In this document: in pieces, positions 5,823 to 29,953 of the stretch
How positions within the stretch are numbered: position 1 is the stretch's first letter
How the letters are laid out: each line of letters begins with the position of its first letter
From: a virus
Length of the DNA: 29,953 nt
IMG/VR virus record: IMGVR_UViG_3300047548_000862
Coordinates: 1-29,953 of that record
Reading direction: 5' to 3' (one strand)
Made by a program: the position numbers and the translations under genes
The notes under the pieces: model-generated
The model's input: the letters and a program-made list of their open reading frames with translations, nothing else
Told to the model about the DNA's origin: nothing
Database searches by the model: none

Positions 5823-6821
5823 ATGGCAAAACTAGGAATAAATACCGGTTCTACACCAAATGATGGTACAGGAGATACACTTTTAGCGGCTGCTTTAAAG
5901 ATAAATCAAAATTTTGATGAGATATATACCACTTTTGGTGATGGTGCTAGTTTATCTGGTATTGTTGGTTATGCAACTGAAGGATATGTTGATAATGCTG
6001 TAGTTGGGTTTATAACTTCTGGTTCTCTAAGTGGTTATGCAACTGAAGGATATGTAGATAATGCTGTAGTAGGATTTATTACTTCTGGTGCTCTAAGTGG
6101 TTATGCGACTGAAGGATATGTTGATAATGCTGTAGTTGGTTATGCAACTGAAGGATATGTAGATAATGCTGTAGTTGGGTTTATAACTTCGGGTTCTTTA
6201 ACTGGTTATGCTACTGAAGGATATGTTAATTCTAAAGTTGGTTTATCAACTGTTGGATTACTTAGTGCAACTGGTAATGGATCTACTTTAACTGGTATTG
6301 TAACATCAATTACTGCTGGTTCCGGTATTTTGGTAAATCAATCAACTGGTAGTGTTACTATTAGTGCTACTGGTGGAGGTGATGGAGGAGGAGAATCCTA
6401 CTGGGTATCAACAACAGCAGGAATTCATACACTTTCTAATGTTGGTGTCGGTACAACAAATCCACGAACACCATTGCAAATTGAAAATGTTTATGGTATT
6501 GATACTGGATCTGGTACATTCAGTCCAACACCTGGTGTTGCATATGCCGCAACTTCTTGGACTATTTCAAGTACAAACTTTAGGACTGCAGAATATACAT
6601 TGTGGTTCCAACATACTGGTGGAATTCAATCCCAAAAAATATTGATTATGAATGATGGAATTAATGCATATTATGAAGAATATGGCATTATGTACAGCAA
6701 TTCTCCGTTAGTTTCTGTAGGTGCGACCGTAGAATCTGGTTCAGTTAAACTATTGTGGACTCCAGAATCTGGAGTAACTGGAGTTGTGACTTACAGATTC
6801 ACTAGGGAGACAATGCTCTAA
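5823..6821 (+). CDS. Tail fibre-like protein with 22-residue shaft repeats
   Basis: 332 residues. The N-terminus (about 1-40, with GINTGSTPNDGTGDTL and KINQNFDEIY) matches the short N-terminal region common to marine phage fibre proteins, probably the attachment end. Residues 49-140 hold GYATEGYVDNAVVGF-type shaft repeats, followed by a Gly-rich linker near 184-192 and VGVGTTNP at 207-214. The C-terminal domain (about 213-332, with FRTAEYTLWFQHTGG and ILIMNDGINAYYEEYG) resembles a beta-sandwich tip domain found at the ends of many marine phage fibres. Its stop codon shares one base with the next start. A probable late promoter lies just upstream. It is likely a trimeric receptor-binding or whisker-type fibre; the receptor is unknown. 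Confidence 0.8.
   Translation: MAKLGINTGSTPNDGTGDTLLAAALKINQNFDEIYTTFGDGASLSGIVGYATEGYVDNAVVGFITSGSLSGYATEGYVDNAVVGFITSGALSGYATEGYVDNAVVGYATEGYVDNAVVGFITSGSLTGYATEGYVNSKVGLSTVGLLSATGNGSTLTGIVTSITAGSGILVNQSTGSVTISATGGGDGGGESYWVSTTAGIHTLSNVGVGTTNPRTPLQIENVYGIDTGSGTFSPTPGVAYAATSWTISSTNFRTAEYTLWFQHTGGIQSQKILIMNDGINAYYEEYGIMYSNSPLVSVGATVESGSVKLLWTPESGVTGVVTYRFTRETML
5967..6242 (+). repeat. 66-bp in-frame tandem repeat coding the fibre shaft
   Basis: Units start at 5967, 6033, 6099, 6138 and 6204. Units 1, 2 and 4 are 66 bp (22 codons). Unit 3 stops after 39 bp (13 codons), losing the GFITSG half. Unit 5 is degenerate after ATEGYV. Differences between full units are mostly synonymous third-position changes. 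Confidence 0.9.
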
Positions 6822-8878
6822 TGTTAAAACTATCCCACACTGGAAGATATTGGATAAAATGGGGAGATACTAATGAAGGAAGTCTTCAATCAGTAACTTC
6901 TTATGATAAAAATAATATATACAGTTCTGGTAATTCAACAACAACAAAAAATGCGATAATATCAAAATCTAACCTTAGTGGAGACTGTAAATGGATACGG
7001 TCTCTAGGAGATAATACCAATCAAACTACATCATACAGTGTAGATACAGATTCATTTGGAAATGTATATGTATCATTAATACAAAATATTTCTGGAAATA
7101 ATAATTTTATTATTGCGAAATATAGTTCATTGGGAGTTCTCCAATGGAAAAAGAAATTAAATGTTGGTGGTAGTAATGGTGCCAGTACATTAAAAGTCGG
7201 GGACTCTAATCACATTTATATTTGTGGATGGACAAATCAGTCTGGTCAAGGAAACTCAGACCTATTGGTTATGAAATTAGATTTATCTGGAAATATTATT
7301 TGGCAAAAAACTTTAGGTTCAACAGGAAGTGAAGAAGGTTATAATTTAATATTAGATTCTAATGAAGATATAATAATAACAGCATATAATCTGGATGACA
7401 TTCTTGTTGTAAAATACAATACATCCGGTGATTTGCAATGGCAAAGAAAAATTGGTAAAGTTAAAATAGGTACATATGATGCAGAGTATTCTCCTAGTGT
7501 TGCCGTAGATTCTAGTAATAATATTTACATCGTTGGATATGAAATATATGAATATAGTACAGCATTTGGCAATACTGCATATGGATTTAAAGGAATTGTT
7601 GCAAAATATAGTCCCTCCGGGTCTATTCAATGGCAAAAAACAATAACATCCAACACAAGTACATACGTACAATTGTATGGAATAACAATAGATTCAAATA
7701 ATAATCTCTATATTACTGGATCCTGCACCGTTGATATTGGTACACCAAAATATGCGGCATATATTGCAAAATTGGATACTTCAGGAAATATTCAGTGGCA
7801 AAGAGGATTATACCGTACATCCGATGGTGTTATAACTTATGCTTTAACAAGTTATGGATATTCAATAGAAGTTGACGAGTATGATGATTTATACGTTTCT
7901 GGAGAAACCACTTATGCCAGCAATGAAGTTTATAATAAGTATTGGCCATTATTATTAAAAGTACCTAGTGATGGTTCACAACAAGGAATATATGGTCAAT
8001 TTAGATATAATTCGGTGTCATTGTCATATTCCAATGGCATATATACGGACTCTACTACAAGTTTTGTAGATTCTTCTAGTAGTTTTAATTTTATAGATTC
8101 AACTTTAATAGATTCTGCATACTCTTGTTCTTATTTTGATAATATTTTGGAAATACCTGATTTTAGTGAAACCCTAACTGTAAGTGTTAGGGAAAATATA
8201 ATTACTAGTAATTTACAAATTCATTTAGATGCCATTGACAAAAACTCATATCCTGGTTCTGGAACTACTTGGATAGATCTGATGGGAAATAGTAATGGAA
8301 CTTTAACAAATGGACCAAGTTATGACGGAGAAAGTATAGTATTTGATGGGACTGATGACGCTGTTACATTTTCCCAATATGATTTTGGTAATGAATTTAC
8401 TCTATTTTGTTTTATAAAACCTTCTCTTAGGACTAACATTACAACACTTTTTGCAAATAGTATTGCTGGGTTTCCCACAAATGGAATTAGATTATTTTTT
8501 AATTTTGAAAACCAAAACACTAGAACTCTTCACATTGAACTTGGAAACGGTTCGTCTGGATTTGGGTTGAATAGCGCACTTAATACCATTACATACGATA
8601 CTTGGCAGCAAGTTGCATTTACATTAAATAAAAATACTGCAAAGGCAGTCATTTATCATAATGGCATTAATGTCAAAGAGGGTAATTTAAGTTTTACAAA
8701 TTATAATACTAATGCAACATTCAGGTTCGGAACAATGGGCAGTTCAGTTTACCCATATGCAGGAGGACTGGCAAATTACTTAATATACAACAGAGCACTC
8801 ACAGAATCAGAAATAAAACAAAACTATATTAATCAAAAAGGAAGATTTTTTGGCGAGAACAATATTAGTATCTTTTAA
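6821..8878 (+). CDS. Beta-propeller (SBBP-like) plus LamG adhesin-like protein
   Basis: 685 residues. Residues about 25-385 are repeated propeller blades, each with a 'NxIYIxG' strand and a 'KxxxxGxxxWQK' strand. The blade tryptophans are W58, W109, W161, W207, W271 and W326, with a weaker seventh near W375. A Ser-rich linker (about 395-460) leads to a LamG/concanavalin-like jellyroll at about 462-665, with NLQIHLDA, SIVFDGTDDAVTF, FTLFCFIKP, WQQVAFTLN and the closing YNRALTESEI motif. LamG domains commonly bind glycans, so surface recognition is the likely role. The start codon overlaps the previous stop by one base, so the two are co-translated and possibly part of the same fibre. No signal peptide is present, as expected for a virion protein. 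Confidence 0.8.
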   Translation: MLKLSHTGRYWIKWGDTNEGSLQSVTSYDKNNIYSSGNSTTTKNAIISKSNLSGDCKWIRSLGDNTNQTTSYSVDTDSFGNVYVSLIQNISGNNNFIIAKYSSLGVLQWKKKLNVGGSNGASTLKVGDSNHIYICGWTNQSGQGNSDLLVMKLDLSGNIIWQKTLGSTGSEEGYNLILDSNEDIIITAYNLDDILVVKYNTSGDLQWQRKIGKVKIGTYDAEYSPSVAVDSSNNIYIVGYEIYEYSTAFGNTAYGFKGIVAKYSPSGSIQWQKTITSNTSTYVQLYGITIDSNNNLYITGSCTVDIGTPKYAAYIAKLDTSGNIQWQRGLYRTSDGVITYALTSYGYSIEVDEYDDLYVSGETTYASNEVYNKYWPLLLKVPSDGSQQGIYGQFRYNSVSLSYSNGIYTDSTTSFVDSSSSFNFIDSTLIDSAYSCSYFDNILEIPDFSETLTVSVRENIITSNLQIHLDAIDKNSYPGSGTTWIDLMGNSNGTLTNGPSYDGESIVFDGTDDAVTFSQYDFGNEFTLFCFIKPSLRTNITTLFANSIAGFPTNGIRLFFNFENQNTRTLHIELGNGSSGFGLNSALNTITYDTWQQVAFTLNKNTAKAVIYHNGINVKEGNLSFTNYNTNATFRFGTMGSSVYPYAGGLANYLIYNRALTESEIKQNYINQKGRFFGENNISIF

Positions 8879-26291: not shown

Positions 26292-27674
26292 ATGGCACTT
26301 TTAGTACCAGATAGTGGAGAACTACAGTCATTAAGATATCTTGTAAATAGCAACCATCAAATTCCTAGAAATTTGATCTTAAAACTATTTTCAAGCAATA
26401 CTACACCAGCAGAAGGTGATGTTCCAAGTCAATCTGCATATTATGAACCATATGATGCAACTGGTTTGGTTGGTTATGGAACAGCACCAAATAATAGTTA
26501 CCCACTTTGTATCAATAACAGATGGGATCAAGACTATTCTCAACAATATGGTATTTTACTTAATGGAAATCTCTGGAATGTAAGAACTATTTTAACCCCA
26601 ATTGCAACTACTACTGGTGGTGGAACAACTGGTGAATATACAATTACAGTAGCAAGTACATTAAATATTGCTGTTGGTCATTATGTTAGTGGTGGAAATG
26701 TAGGATCAAATGCTGTAGTTGCTGCAATTGATGGAAATACAATTGTACTCACAGTGCCAAACACTGCAACATTTAATAGTCAGACATTAGAATTTGGTGT
26801 AGGTACAACTACAGCATCATATCCAGAGCAGACATTTACATTTAGTGACGCAGGTAACCAACAGTATGGATATTATCTGGCAAGAGCAAATAATATGCCA
26901 GTTCAAATCCATGGTGTTGCAAATGCTGCGACAATTTCTGTTAACGCAGGAGTAGCAAAATCACAAACTATTGGTGTTATTGCACAATCATATGTAACAC
27001 TATTTGAAACAAAATATGAGCCAACTGCTACTGGAACATCTGGTCTTTTCTCATTTACTGTAAGTAATATTACAGGAATTAATACAGATCAAAGAGTTAT
27101 TGGCACAGGAATTGCAAGTGATGCAAGAGTGGTTGGATTTACTACTGATACAGTTTACGTAAATAAGGCAAATACTGGAGCAGTTTCTGGAGTTGCAACA
27201 TTCTTCAAAAATGTTACTGAAGATGTAACTATCGGTATGGGTGTAACTCACTCCAACCTTCTAGGTGAAATTAATGCTATCCCAGCAAATACAAAAGTAA
27301 CAGGTATTGATGAAAAGAATAGAATTATTTACTTGAATAATGCCTTAGTAAATAACATTCAGTCTGCTACTGGTGATACTATTACTTTCGCATCAAGCAA
27401 AGTAAGCACAGGTTCAACTGCACACGGATTAGTACCAGGTGATGTAATCTACATTGCAGCAGGAACAGGAAATACTACAACTACTTCATCTACATATACA
27501 ATTTTTGAAACACCAGATTCAACAACATTTACTACAACCCCAGCATTAAATGGTTCTGGTGCTTCAACACTTTATAGCAGCATCTTCTTCGCAGAAAGAT
27601 TCACAAACGGTCCTTACAATATTCAGAACAACGGTGACCAAATTAAGGTTACCTTGAATATCAGCCTCGACTGA
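26292..27674 (+). CDS. Virion structural protein, tail-associated type
   Basis: 460 residues. The N-terminus (MALLVPDSGELQSLRYLVN, then NLILKLFSSNTTPAEGD) and C-terminus (FFAERFTNGPYNIQNNGDQI, ending VTLNISLD) match a structural protein type that recurs in marine T4-like and other tailed phages. The body is Gly/Thr/Val-rich beta sequence and includes an 'HGLVPGDVIYIAAG' unit near nt 27400-27560, related to the repeated units of the giant protein at 1-5787. A perfect late promoter and a strong Shine-Dalgarno precede it and a hairpin terminator follows, so it may form its own abundant transcript. The exact virion location is unknown. Confidence 0.78.
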   Translation: MALLVPDSGELQSLRYLVNSNHQIPRNLILKLFSSNTTPAEGDVPSQSAYYEPYDATGLVGYGTAPNNSYPLCINNRWDQDYSQQYGILLNGNLWNVRTILTPIATTTGGGTTGEYTITVASTLNIAVGHYVSGGNVGSNAVVAAIDGNTIVLTVPNTATFNSQTLEFGVGTTTASYPEQTFTFSDAGNQQYGYYLARANNMPVQIHGVANAATISVNAGVAKSQTIGVIAQSYVTLFETKYEPTATGTSGLFSFTVSNITGINTDQRVIGTGIASDARVVGFTTDTVYVNKANTGAVSGVATFFKNVTEDVTIGMGVTHSNLLGEINAIPANTKVTGIDEKNRIIYLNNALVNNIQSATGDTITFASSKVSTGSTAHGLVPGDVIYIAAGTGNTTTTSSTYTIFETPDSTTFTTTPALNGSGASTLYSSIFFAERFTNGPYNIQNNGDQIKVTLNISLD

Positions 27675-27700: not shown

Positions 27701-27734
27701 GGAGGGGTTGCAAGAGCGGTCCCTCCTATTTTTA
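27701..27734 (+). terminator. Probable intrinsic terminator
   Basis: GGAGGG (27701-27706) pairs with CCCTCC (27721-27726). Three G-T wobbles and one G-C pair can extend the stem to 10 bp around a 6-nt loop, and TATTTTTAT follows. It stands out as GC-rich in this AT-rich sequence. A weaker AT-rich hairpin (TGATTT/AAATCA, 27672-27687) lies just upstream. Confidence 0.65.
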
Positions 27735-27753: not shown

Positions 27754-28266
27754 ATGCCAGCACGTAATGTCGGTGTAAATTCTACTTTTGAGGAACAACG
27801 TCAAGTTATAAATCAACTTGCTGGAGATGTATTTTCTTTTGAATCTCCTAATTATGTAAAACTCGCAAGAATAACAAACCAAACTATAACCAATGGTGCT
27901 GACACTTTAATTGGATTTTCTGTGGTCAGTGATCCGAATAATTGGTATAGTGGGATTACAACTCGCACCACACCAACCGTTGCAGGAACTTATCACATCG
28001 ATGTGATGTTAAACTGGCAATCAGGATCTGTTGTAAACAATCAAACAAATATTCAAATTAGAAAGAATGGGTCTACATTTGCATTAAGTCAAGTTGGTAT
28101 AGAGACCAATTTTGCATATACTCAAAGTGCTTGTGGAATTGTTACAATGAATGGAACAACAGATTATATTGATTTTACAGTATTTACAGGAAATCCAACC
28201 AGTCAAGTTGTTACTGGAACTGCTGACGGGGCTTGGACGAAAATGGAGGTATATAAAATAAACTGA
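27754..28266 (+). CDS. C1q/TNF-like fibre tip protein
   Basis: 170 residues. The N-terminus (NVGVNSTFEEQRQVINQLAG) resembles the short attachment region of marine phage tail proteins. Residues about 33-168 follow the C1q/TNF-like jellyroll pattern: 'TTPTVAGTYHIDVMLNWQSG', 'NIQIRKNGSTFALSQ', 'CGIVTMNGTTDYIDFTVFTG' and a closing 'WTKMEVYKIN' strand. Such domains form trimers and are common at receptor-binding ends. AGAGG about 6 nt before the ATG supports the start. It lies after a probable terminator, so it needs its own promoter or read-through; a clear late promoter is not seen in the short gap. Its TGA overlaps the next ATG by one base. Confidence 0.78.
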   Translation: MPARNVGVNSTFEEQRQVINQLAGDVFSFESPNYVKLARITNQTITNGADTLIGFSVVSDPNNWYSGITTRTTPTVAGTYHIDVMLNWQSGSVVNNQTNIQIRKNGSTFALSQVGIETNFAYTQSACGIVTMNGTTDYIDFTVFTGNPTSQVVTGTADGAWTKMEVYKIN

Positions 28267-29953
28267 TGGCAATTTTCTCATATTCATCAGGTTCAACTTT
28301 ACCACAAATATCAGAATATGCTGACCAACAAATCAGCCAATATTCTAACGAGGTTGTATCTGTTTTTGGATTGAGAAATAAAAATTTATTTAAACTTACA
28401 TCATCATCTGATCAATTACTTGTATCTTCTTCTTTTTCGTATAATGAATTATCTGATAATTATTTTATTAACTATGATTATGGGAATATTGTAGATTCAA
28501 TTGATGAATCTGAAGACTATGGAAGTATAACAGATGTTACAACAACATTTGAAGAGTATGGATATACAACTGAAAAGAATACTGCTGCATTCGGAATAGT
28601 AGGAAATATAGAATCTGCTACCGAATATTCTATAATTAGAGTATCTCAAATACAAGGAACTACATTCTTATTCAATGGAAGGTCTAATGTTTATATTAAT
28701 TCTTCATACATTGGATATGGTTTACTATCTACTAGTGGAACATTAAGTTCAGAAAAAAATACCGAATCTTATGTAGGAACAGGAAAAGCATTTGGATTCG
28801 GAAGTAAGGCAGAGAGAGTTGTCGCATCTTATAACAACTCCTCTGTCGTTTCTTATGAAAGCATTGATTATGGTTCTATAAGTTCTGTTATTGATTCTAC
28901 AGAAGATTATGGATCTATTTTGGATGATCCAAATCTTCCTTCAGAACGTGATAATTATGGACTCATTACTGGTCGTGGATTAAGACCATTTGGATTAACA
29001 AGATTCTCTAGTGCAAACATAGAGAAGAATACAGAATCTTATGTTGGTTCTGGATCACTATTTAACTTTGGAACCGCCAAGATTTTTGTATTACCAGTAC
29101 ATTACGGAAAAGGTACATTTAAGATCCGTGGAGCATACAGTGATCTTAAGAACGCTGAGTCTTATGTTGGTTCTGGATCACTATTTGGATTCGGCAGTAA
29201 AGCAGAAAGAGCAGCAGTAAGTTATAATCTATCATCAACTGTTGATTATGAGGGACTTGATTATGGTTCTATAAGTTCTTCTATTGATGAATTTGATGAT
29301 TATGGTTCCATTCTTGATACAGAACTCTATGGACAGCAAACAGATGATTATGGTCTAGTTACTGGTCGTGGATTGAGACCATTTGGATTAACTAGTTTCT
29401 CCAGTGCCAATATAGAGAAGAATACTGAAAATTATGTTGGTAGTGGTTCTCTATTCAACTTTGGTAATGTAAAAGTATTTGTATTACCAAAACATATAGG
29501 TCGTGGTGTCCTTAAGATCCGTGGAGGATATAGCAACCTTAAGAATACAGAATCTTATGTAGGAACAGGTAGGGCATTTGGATTCGGTAGTAAAGCAGAA
29601 CGTACTACTGCCTCATATAATGAATTCTCTATAGTTGATTATGAAGGTTTAGACTATGGTTCTATAAGTTCTTCTATTGATGAATTTGATGATTATGGTT
29701 CCATTCTTGATACAGAACTCTATGGACAGCAAACAGATGATTATGGTCTAGTTACTGGTCGTGGATTGAGACCATTTGGATTAACTAGTTTCTCCAGTGC
29801 CAATATAGAGAAGAATACTGAAAATTATGTTGGTAGTGGTTCTCTATTCAACTTTGGTAATGTAAAAGTATTTGTATTACCAAAACATATAGGTCGTGGT
29901 GTCCTTAAGATCCGTGGAGGATATAGCAACCTTAAGAATACAGAATCTTATGT
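28266..29953 (+). CDS. Tyr/Gly-rich 131-residue-repeat structural protein, 3' end missing
   Basis: The ATG shares one base with the TGA of the C1q-like gene, and the frame stays open to the window end (562 codons). After a unique N-terminal part (about 1-200) the protein consists of 131-residue units. Each has an acidic Tyr stretch (DYGSISSSIDEFDDYGSILD in unit 2), a RGLRPFGLTxFSSANIEKN block, and two copies of an (E/L)KNTESYVGxGxxFxFG half-repeat, one followed by a VFVLPKHIGRGVLKIRGGY-type strand and the other by SKAERxxxSYN. Degenerate half-repeats start earlier (near nt 28570). No known enzyme motif, signal peptide or membrane segment. I recognise no named family; similar long repeat proteins exist in T4-like cyanophages, and a fibre-like virion role is the simplest reading. 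Confidence 0.82.
   Translation, partial: MAIFSYSSGSTLPQISEYADQQISQYSNEVVSVFGLRNKNLFKLTSSSDQLLVSSSFSYNELSDNYFINYDYGNIVDSIDESEDYGSITDVTTTFEEYGYTTEKNTAAFGIVGNIESATEYSIIRVSQIQGTTFLFNGRSNVYINSSYIGYGLLSTSGTLSSEKNTESYVGTGKAFGFGSKAERVVASYNNSSVVSYESIDYGSISSVIDSTEDYGSILDDPNLPSERDNYGLITGRGLRPFGLTRFSSANIEKNTESYVGSGSLFNFGTAKIFVLPVHYGKGTFKIRGAYSDLKNAESYVGSGSLFGFGSKAERAAVSYNLSSTVDYEGLDYGSISSSIDEFDDYGSILDTELYGQQTDDYGLVTGRGLRPFGLTSFSSANIEKNTENYVGSGSLFNFGNVKVFVLPKHIGRGVLKIRGGYSNLKNTESYVGTGRAFGFGSKAERTTASYNEFSIVDYEGLDYGSISSSIDEFDDYGSILDTELYGQQTDDYGLVTGRGLRPFGLTSFSSANIEKNTENYVGSGSLFNFGNVKVFVLPKHIGRGVLKIRGGYSNLKNTESY
28869..29953 (+). repeat. 393-bp in-frame tandem repeat, two full units and a partial third
   Basis: Units start at 28869, 29262 and 29655, a constant 393-bp (131-codon) period. 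Unit 1 is diverged. Bases 29262-29560 and 29655-29953 are identical over 299 bp by direct reading, while the remaining 94 bp of unit 2 (29561-29654) differ clearly from the equivalent part of unit 1 (29168-29261). The window stops inside unit 3. Confidence 0.92.

Follow-up and report, generated by a model that had tools for sequence, protein, structure and literature searches.

What kind of protein is built from a regular 131-residue repeat, and what is it for, are the questions raised by an open reading frame (ORF) that runs off the end of a 29,953-base virus record, the stretch of DNA analysed here and called the window. An earlier note had described the repeat, recognised no named domain in it, and suggested that the protein is a beta fibre forming the shaft of a structure tipped by the product of the overlapping upstream gene.

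The repeat gene and its units

The ORF starts at position 28266, overlaps by one base (TGATG) the upstream ORF 27754-28266, and is open at the 3' end, where it is cut by the contig end. Its features are the following.

28266..29951, + strand: N-terminal 562 residues of a giant modular repeat protein of the PHROG 11522 family (ORF list, phrog_11522 match, 1,234-aa homologue in locus L007)
28308..28370, + strand: N-terminal segment ISEYADQQISQYSNEVVSVFG, also seen inserted into the DYG modules of related proteins (sequence reading)
28425..28748, + strand: degenerate first unit, residues 54-161 (unit profile, E 2.8e-19)
28755..29147, + strand: 131-residue unit 1, residues 164-294 (profile and unit comparison)
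29148..29540, + strand: 131-residue unit 2, residues 295-425 (profile and unit comparison)
29541..29933, + strand: 131-residue unit 3, residues 426-556, with the C-terminal part equal to unit 2 in DNA
28821..28976, + strand: DYG insert of unit 1, about 52 residues, YNxSSxxx...DYGxI...DYGxI...DYGxI..RPFG (alignment A2, 55 units)
29214-29369 and 29607-29762, + strand: equivalents of the DYG insert in units 2 and 3

At the DNA level Tandem Repeats Finder reports a period of 393 bp, 2.6 copies and a score of 1444. Protein self-similarity at lag 131 has a mean BLOSUM62 score of 2.45, whereas no lag in 100 shuffles scores above -0.36, and the repeat is therefore far beyond chance. Motifs of the [DEN]-aromatic-G-x-[ILV] type occur 13 times (0.8 expected), GxG..F motifs 6 times (0.4 expected). 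The tandem, two-part 131-residue repeat proposed in the earlier note is thus confirmed, and so is the alternation of A and B half-repeats. The picture can be refined: half-repeats are spaced 90+41 within the unit, a degenerate fourth unit precedes the other three, and a shorter basic period of 20-21 residues underlies all. Glycine makes up 12% of this part of the protein, serine 15%, phenylalanine plus tyrosine 13.5%; cysteine and tryptophan are missing.

Units 1 and 2 are 71% identical both in amino acids and in DNA. For units 2 and 3 identity rises to 92% in amino acids and 90% in DNA, and their B halves are identical. The contig stops inside a 299-bp exact copy (29262-29560 = 29655-29953), and the identity of the two units probably stopped the assembler at this point. 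An end of this sort might also suggest that a unit has been duplicated by the assembler. This is extremely improbable, because the copies are not alike in unit 1 and in the A halves, and independent contigs and isolates also carry these modules as tandem arrays; in L007 the 131-residue spacing recurs (residues 377 and 508).

A known, uncharacterised family

The window protein is a member of an already known, uncharacterised family. The ORF matches PHROG 11522, a family of no known function, in six stretches (E 5.6e-30), and the complete relative in L007 matches the same profile with an E value of 1.1e-81. Homologues were collected in two sets, 79 loci fetched via the upstream 460-aa gene and 40 via a full-length relative. 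The nearest complete homologue is the 1,234-aa protein of L007; other relatives range from about 700 to over 3,000 aa. With the repeat proteins of L008 and L067 the window protein shares about 60% identity.

The window units, together with homologous ones, were turned into a unit profile, which was searched against phage genome segments. It retrieved the giant proteins of S-CAM1, S-CAM3, S-SSM7, Sf-FS3 and S-SCSM2R (E 1.7e-30 to 7e-181) and nothing else in the segments searched. PHROG 11522 (2130 positions, S-CAM1-type protein) shares with the window protein profile, module types and gene slot. S-CAM1 SXBG_00232 (2130 aa), S-CAM3 AOV59077 (2558 aa), S-SSM7 SSSM7_110 (1529 aa), Sf-FS3 SfFS3_93 and S-SCSM2R SSCSM2R_111, the last labelled TolB, resemble the window protein in modules and synteny, but are only about 25% identical to it over the aligned stretches and differ in module numbers. 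The regular 131-residue tandem, a lineage-specific expansion, and the coupled upstream gene set the window apart from S-CAM1 and S-CAM3, which have neither. The TolB label was discarded, since no Pfam match of other family members points to TolB. The S-SCSM2R homologue (L004, 18102-22211) has an inserted stretch in the repeat array which by eye resembles an FG-GAP-like propeller.

Searches of Pfam, NCBIfam and PDB gave no meaningful match, to known fibre shaft families or otherwise, and sequence and profile searches of PDB with the repeat family gave chance matches only, with no homologue of known structure. The initial remark that no named domain is recognisable is therefore correct, PHROG 11522 being the only match. 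The family had no match in plasmids, nor, with one query, in bacterial genomes; pattern scans of viral and bacterial sequences with the window ORF and L035 found nothing, and alignments A2 and A4 contained no stretch of sufficient conservation to serve as a scan pattern. Many T4-like cyanophages lack the giant repeat gene. As an example, it is absent from the slot in S-CAM9 and S-SCSM1 by segment comparison and profile search.

Module anatomy

Self-similarity of the family proteins peaks at lags 20/21, 40/41 and 81. G[ST]GxLFxF anchors are spaced by 40 or 41 residues in 84 cases, the looser LFxFxGxA anchors mostly by 19-22; the basic repeat is therefore about 20 residues long and comes in two alternating flavours. 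Beneath the A and B halves lies a 20-21-residue beta-like repeat, GSGxLFxFxGxAxE, arranged in 40/41-residue pairs and broken by DYG inserts of about 52 residues. According to a register set by eye, the 131 residues of the window unit are made up of about four basic repeats and one insert of 52 residues, in which three DYGxI motifs and a PFG occur. In the alignment of 55 units (A2), Y26, D38, G40, D51, G53 and G69 are nearly invariant, G80 and G141 invariant. Cysteine is missing, and methionine and tryptophan almost so. In nearly all members a DYG module opens the array, and most complete relatives, including L007 and L067, carry the C-terminal peptide R-x-[YFV]-x-[IV]-I-I or one close to it.

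Two smaller elements accompany the array. A short segment, ISxxANxxVSxFG, is found both at the N-terminus of the window protein and as an insert in the DYG modules of the giants of L018, L042, L051, L055 and L065, and is, as read from its sequence, a mobile micro-module. In L109, L113, L114, L117, L119, L123 and L125 a 120-140-aa gene lies upstream of the giant gene; its product mostly starts with MNIYEYNSSTINxYxxED... and looks like a stand-alone DYG module.

Selection and gene length

Three S-CAM3 isolates all have a gene of 7,677 nt and four S-CAM1 records all have one of 6,393 nt, and no copy-number variation was found within either species in these records. Within-species dN ranges from 0.0002 to 0.0017 and dS from 0.003 to 0.012, with dN/dS of about 0.04-0.2 (S-CAM3, S-CAM1). 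Low dN/dS and constant length together indicate a maintained coding gene. Gene length is fixed within species, and strongly different between species.

The gene block and the terminator

The window holds a baseplate and fibre gene block of the T4-like cyanophage type. It includes a gp10-like connector gene (phrog_677), gp8 (Phage-Gp8), a 2,512-aa DUF4815/VrlC-type structural gene, a match to L-shaped-fibre assembly proteins, a 226-aa virion structural match, a 460-aa phrog_10467 gene, a 170-aa gene and the repeat ORF. For this block, the best annotated relatives come from the T4-like phages of Synechococcus, with S-SSM7 at 54% over the 2,512-aa protein. Three elements precede the repeat gene.

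26292..27674, + strand: conserved 460-aa gene (phrog_10467; 335 aa in part of the relatives), a constant landmark upstream of the repeat-protein slot
27701..27726, + strand: conserved intrinsic terminator (stem-loop and T run) that follows the 460-aa gene and precedes the repeat-protein cassette
27754..28266, + strand: 170-aa upstream gene, translationally coupled through TGATG, with adaptor-like N-terminus VGVNSTFEEQRQVIN (ORF list, locus comparison)

In the window and in its relatives alike, the giant gene always comes after the 335/460-aa gene. In most loci it is followed by a KxVQxRxGT gene, which corresponds to Mtd_N (PF18454) where tested. The hairpin directly follows the 335/460-aa gene in all 22 loci examined, and in 14 aligned copies two of its pairs show changes on both sides which preserve pairing. 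It marks the border between the baseplate block upstream and the repeat-protein cassette. Since the repeat protein and its optional partner lie behind a terminator, they may have their own promoter, or be expressed at a reduced level.

In L014-L018, L027-L029, L042, L051, L054 and L055 the interval from the 460-aa gene to the repeat gene holds no gene, one or several. Many of these cassette genes start with VGxxxTFEQQRxxIN and continue with differing long C-terminal parts. This variable cassette looks like a swap site for adhesins.

The upstream gene

The direct overlap between the repeat gene and its upstream neighbour is real and amounts to the single shared base of TGATG. The neighbour had been called C1q-like, a label which found no support: the 170-aa protein has no profile match to a C1q domain in Pfam, NCBIfam or PDB, and its relatives have none in Pfam. 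A remote C1q-like fold is possible. The partner family is marked by the conserved adaptor-like N-terminus VGxxxTFEQQRxxIN, which in other loci carries unrelated fibre-like proteins of up to 1,466 aa.

The two products had been proposed to form one fibre, the repeat protein as the shaft and the 170-aa product as the tip. The identical TGATG overlap is found in the window, L007, L010 and L013/L071, where the repeat proteins share an extra N-terminal segment, ISxYANExIS, and the joint conservation of coupling and segment is what favours the proposal. Yet the segment is present in L020 without a partner gene, and the co-occurrence pattern is confounded by relatedness. Moreover, the repeat gene stands without the partner in L008, L067, L011, L035, L038, L058, L060 and others, that is, in most of the family, and obligate co-occurrence of the two genes does not hold across relatives. 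The partner has its own conserved N-terminus, and stalks of varied length. Taken with the missing C1q match, these features make a single shaft-and-tip fibre improbable. Because the partner is absent from most relatives, shows no C1q match and brings an adaptor-like N-terminus of its own, we treat it as a separate adhesin which may or may not associate with the repeat protein.

Fold and function

In T4-like cyanophages the giant modular protein whose N-terminal part the repeat ORF encodes is probably a fibrous component of the virion. This reading, drawn from sequence and gene order, is based on the place of the gene, within a baseplate, tail-fibre and neck gene block, on the type of repeat, on size and composition, and on the absence of enzyme domains. 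The protein is real and ordinary in kind, that is, of the phage fibre type, and its family is uncharacterised.

The repetitive beta fibre suggested in the earlier note agrees with the Gly/Ser/aromatic-rich, Cys-free repeats, with their strand-like alternation and with the baseplate and fibre block. The fold itself was not confirmed by monomer predictions. AlphaFold2 reached a pLDDT of 48.4 for a single extended unit, modelled from an alignment of 55 units, and of 26.5 for the complete ORF with 13 homologues, both below usable confidence; values of this order can be given by an obligate multimer or by a shallow repeat alignment, and are neutral on the fibre. Both models being unusable, it is the periodicity that points to a beta rod. 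Trimeric beta fibres such as the adenovirus triple beta-spiral shaft, T4 gp12/gp34-37 and T7 gp17 combine short Gly-rich repeats of alternating hydrophobicity, giant length and a fibre gene context, and the repeat protein may be likened to them by analogy. No sequence or profile similarity to these fibres was detected, and in contrast to them the window protein has a 20-21-residue repeat with long inserts. It is conceivable, and put forward tentatively, that the family represents a very long viral rod of a new type, made of a 20-21-residue beta repeat with spaced DYG inserts, matching no solved structure, of up to 3,000 residues per chain, set in length for each phage species by module amplification, in a widespread group of cyanophages.

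In the model proposed, beta-strand-turn repeats of about 20 residues would stack into a thin, long rod, probably formed by several chains, since single chains are not predicted to fold. DYG inserts would decorate the rod at intervals, and the conserved N-terminal module and the C-terminal R-x-Y-x-I-I peptide may serve as docking or capping ends. The number of modules would set rod length, and unequal recombination between near-identical repeats would alter it between species. The rod would plausibly work as a side or tail fibre, or as a neck whisker, reaching towards the cyanobacterial surface or holding adhesins near it.

Assignment to the neck or collar, as a whisker-like fibre rather than a baseplate fibre, is unlikely. 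Neck genes lie downstream in the S-SCSM2R block, following the next large gene, and in S-CAM9 and S-SCSM1, which lack the repeat protein, they come shortly after the fibre-assembly gene. The immediate neighbours in the window and relatives, however, are baseplate and fibre-type genes, and no fibritin-type profile match was obtained. It is also rather unlikely that the protein is itself a receptor-binding adhesin, binding surface glycans or cations through its acidic DYG modules with no separate tip. Each module carries several conserved D-[YFW]-G motifs, and the DYG module with which nearly all arrays begin would suit such a role; strong purifying selection within species, with no hypervariable part seen, and the lack of a lectin profile match argue against it.

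In the literature searched, no virion proteome covering a confirmed family member was found. The virion proteome of S-CREM2 (PMC10665884) and the proteome of S-SCSM1 (PMC9602691) come from phages whose corresponding segments are devoid of the repeat family by profile search. S-CREM2 ORF128-130, considered as proteomics-supported orthologues, occupy the same genomic place, but were rejected because they show no module or profile match. PMC3037559 names the proteomes of S-SM1, S-PM2 and Syn9; these phages are not among the matches listed by tblastn with four family members against all phage records. For want of a proteome with a family member, a non-virion or intracellular protein might be envisaged; gene slot, fibre-like composition, giant size, and the lack of cysteine and enzyme domains make this very unlikely. 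The fibrous virion protein remains the preferred reading. Little is known of the way in which T4-like cyanophages locate and bind their cyanobacterial hosts, and in many of these phages the fibre proteins have no assignment. One large uncharacterised family can now be described by its modules and by its constant place among the genes; with S-CAM1 and S-CAM3 it has members in culture, and a clear hypothesis links its module number to rod length.

Other features of the window

Repeated DNA is not confined to the 3' end of the window. A tandem array with units of 39, 66 and 105 bp is found at 5966-6227, within the gp10-like connector gene (5823-6821). This gene is adjoined by one (6821-8878) encoding 685 aa, in which SBBP beta-propeller repeats are combined with a concanavalin-like Laminin_G_3 domain; the product is a candidate receptor-binding protein.
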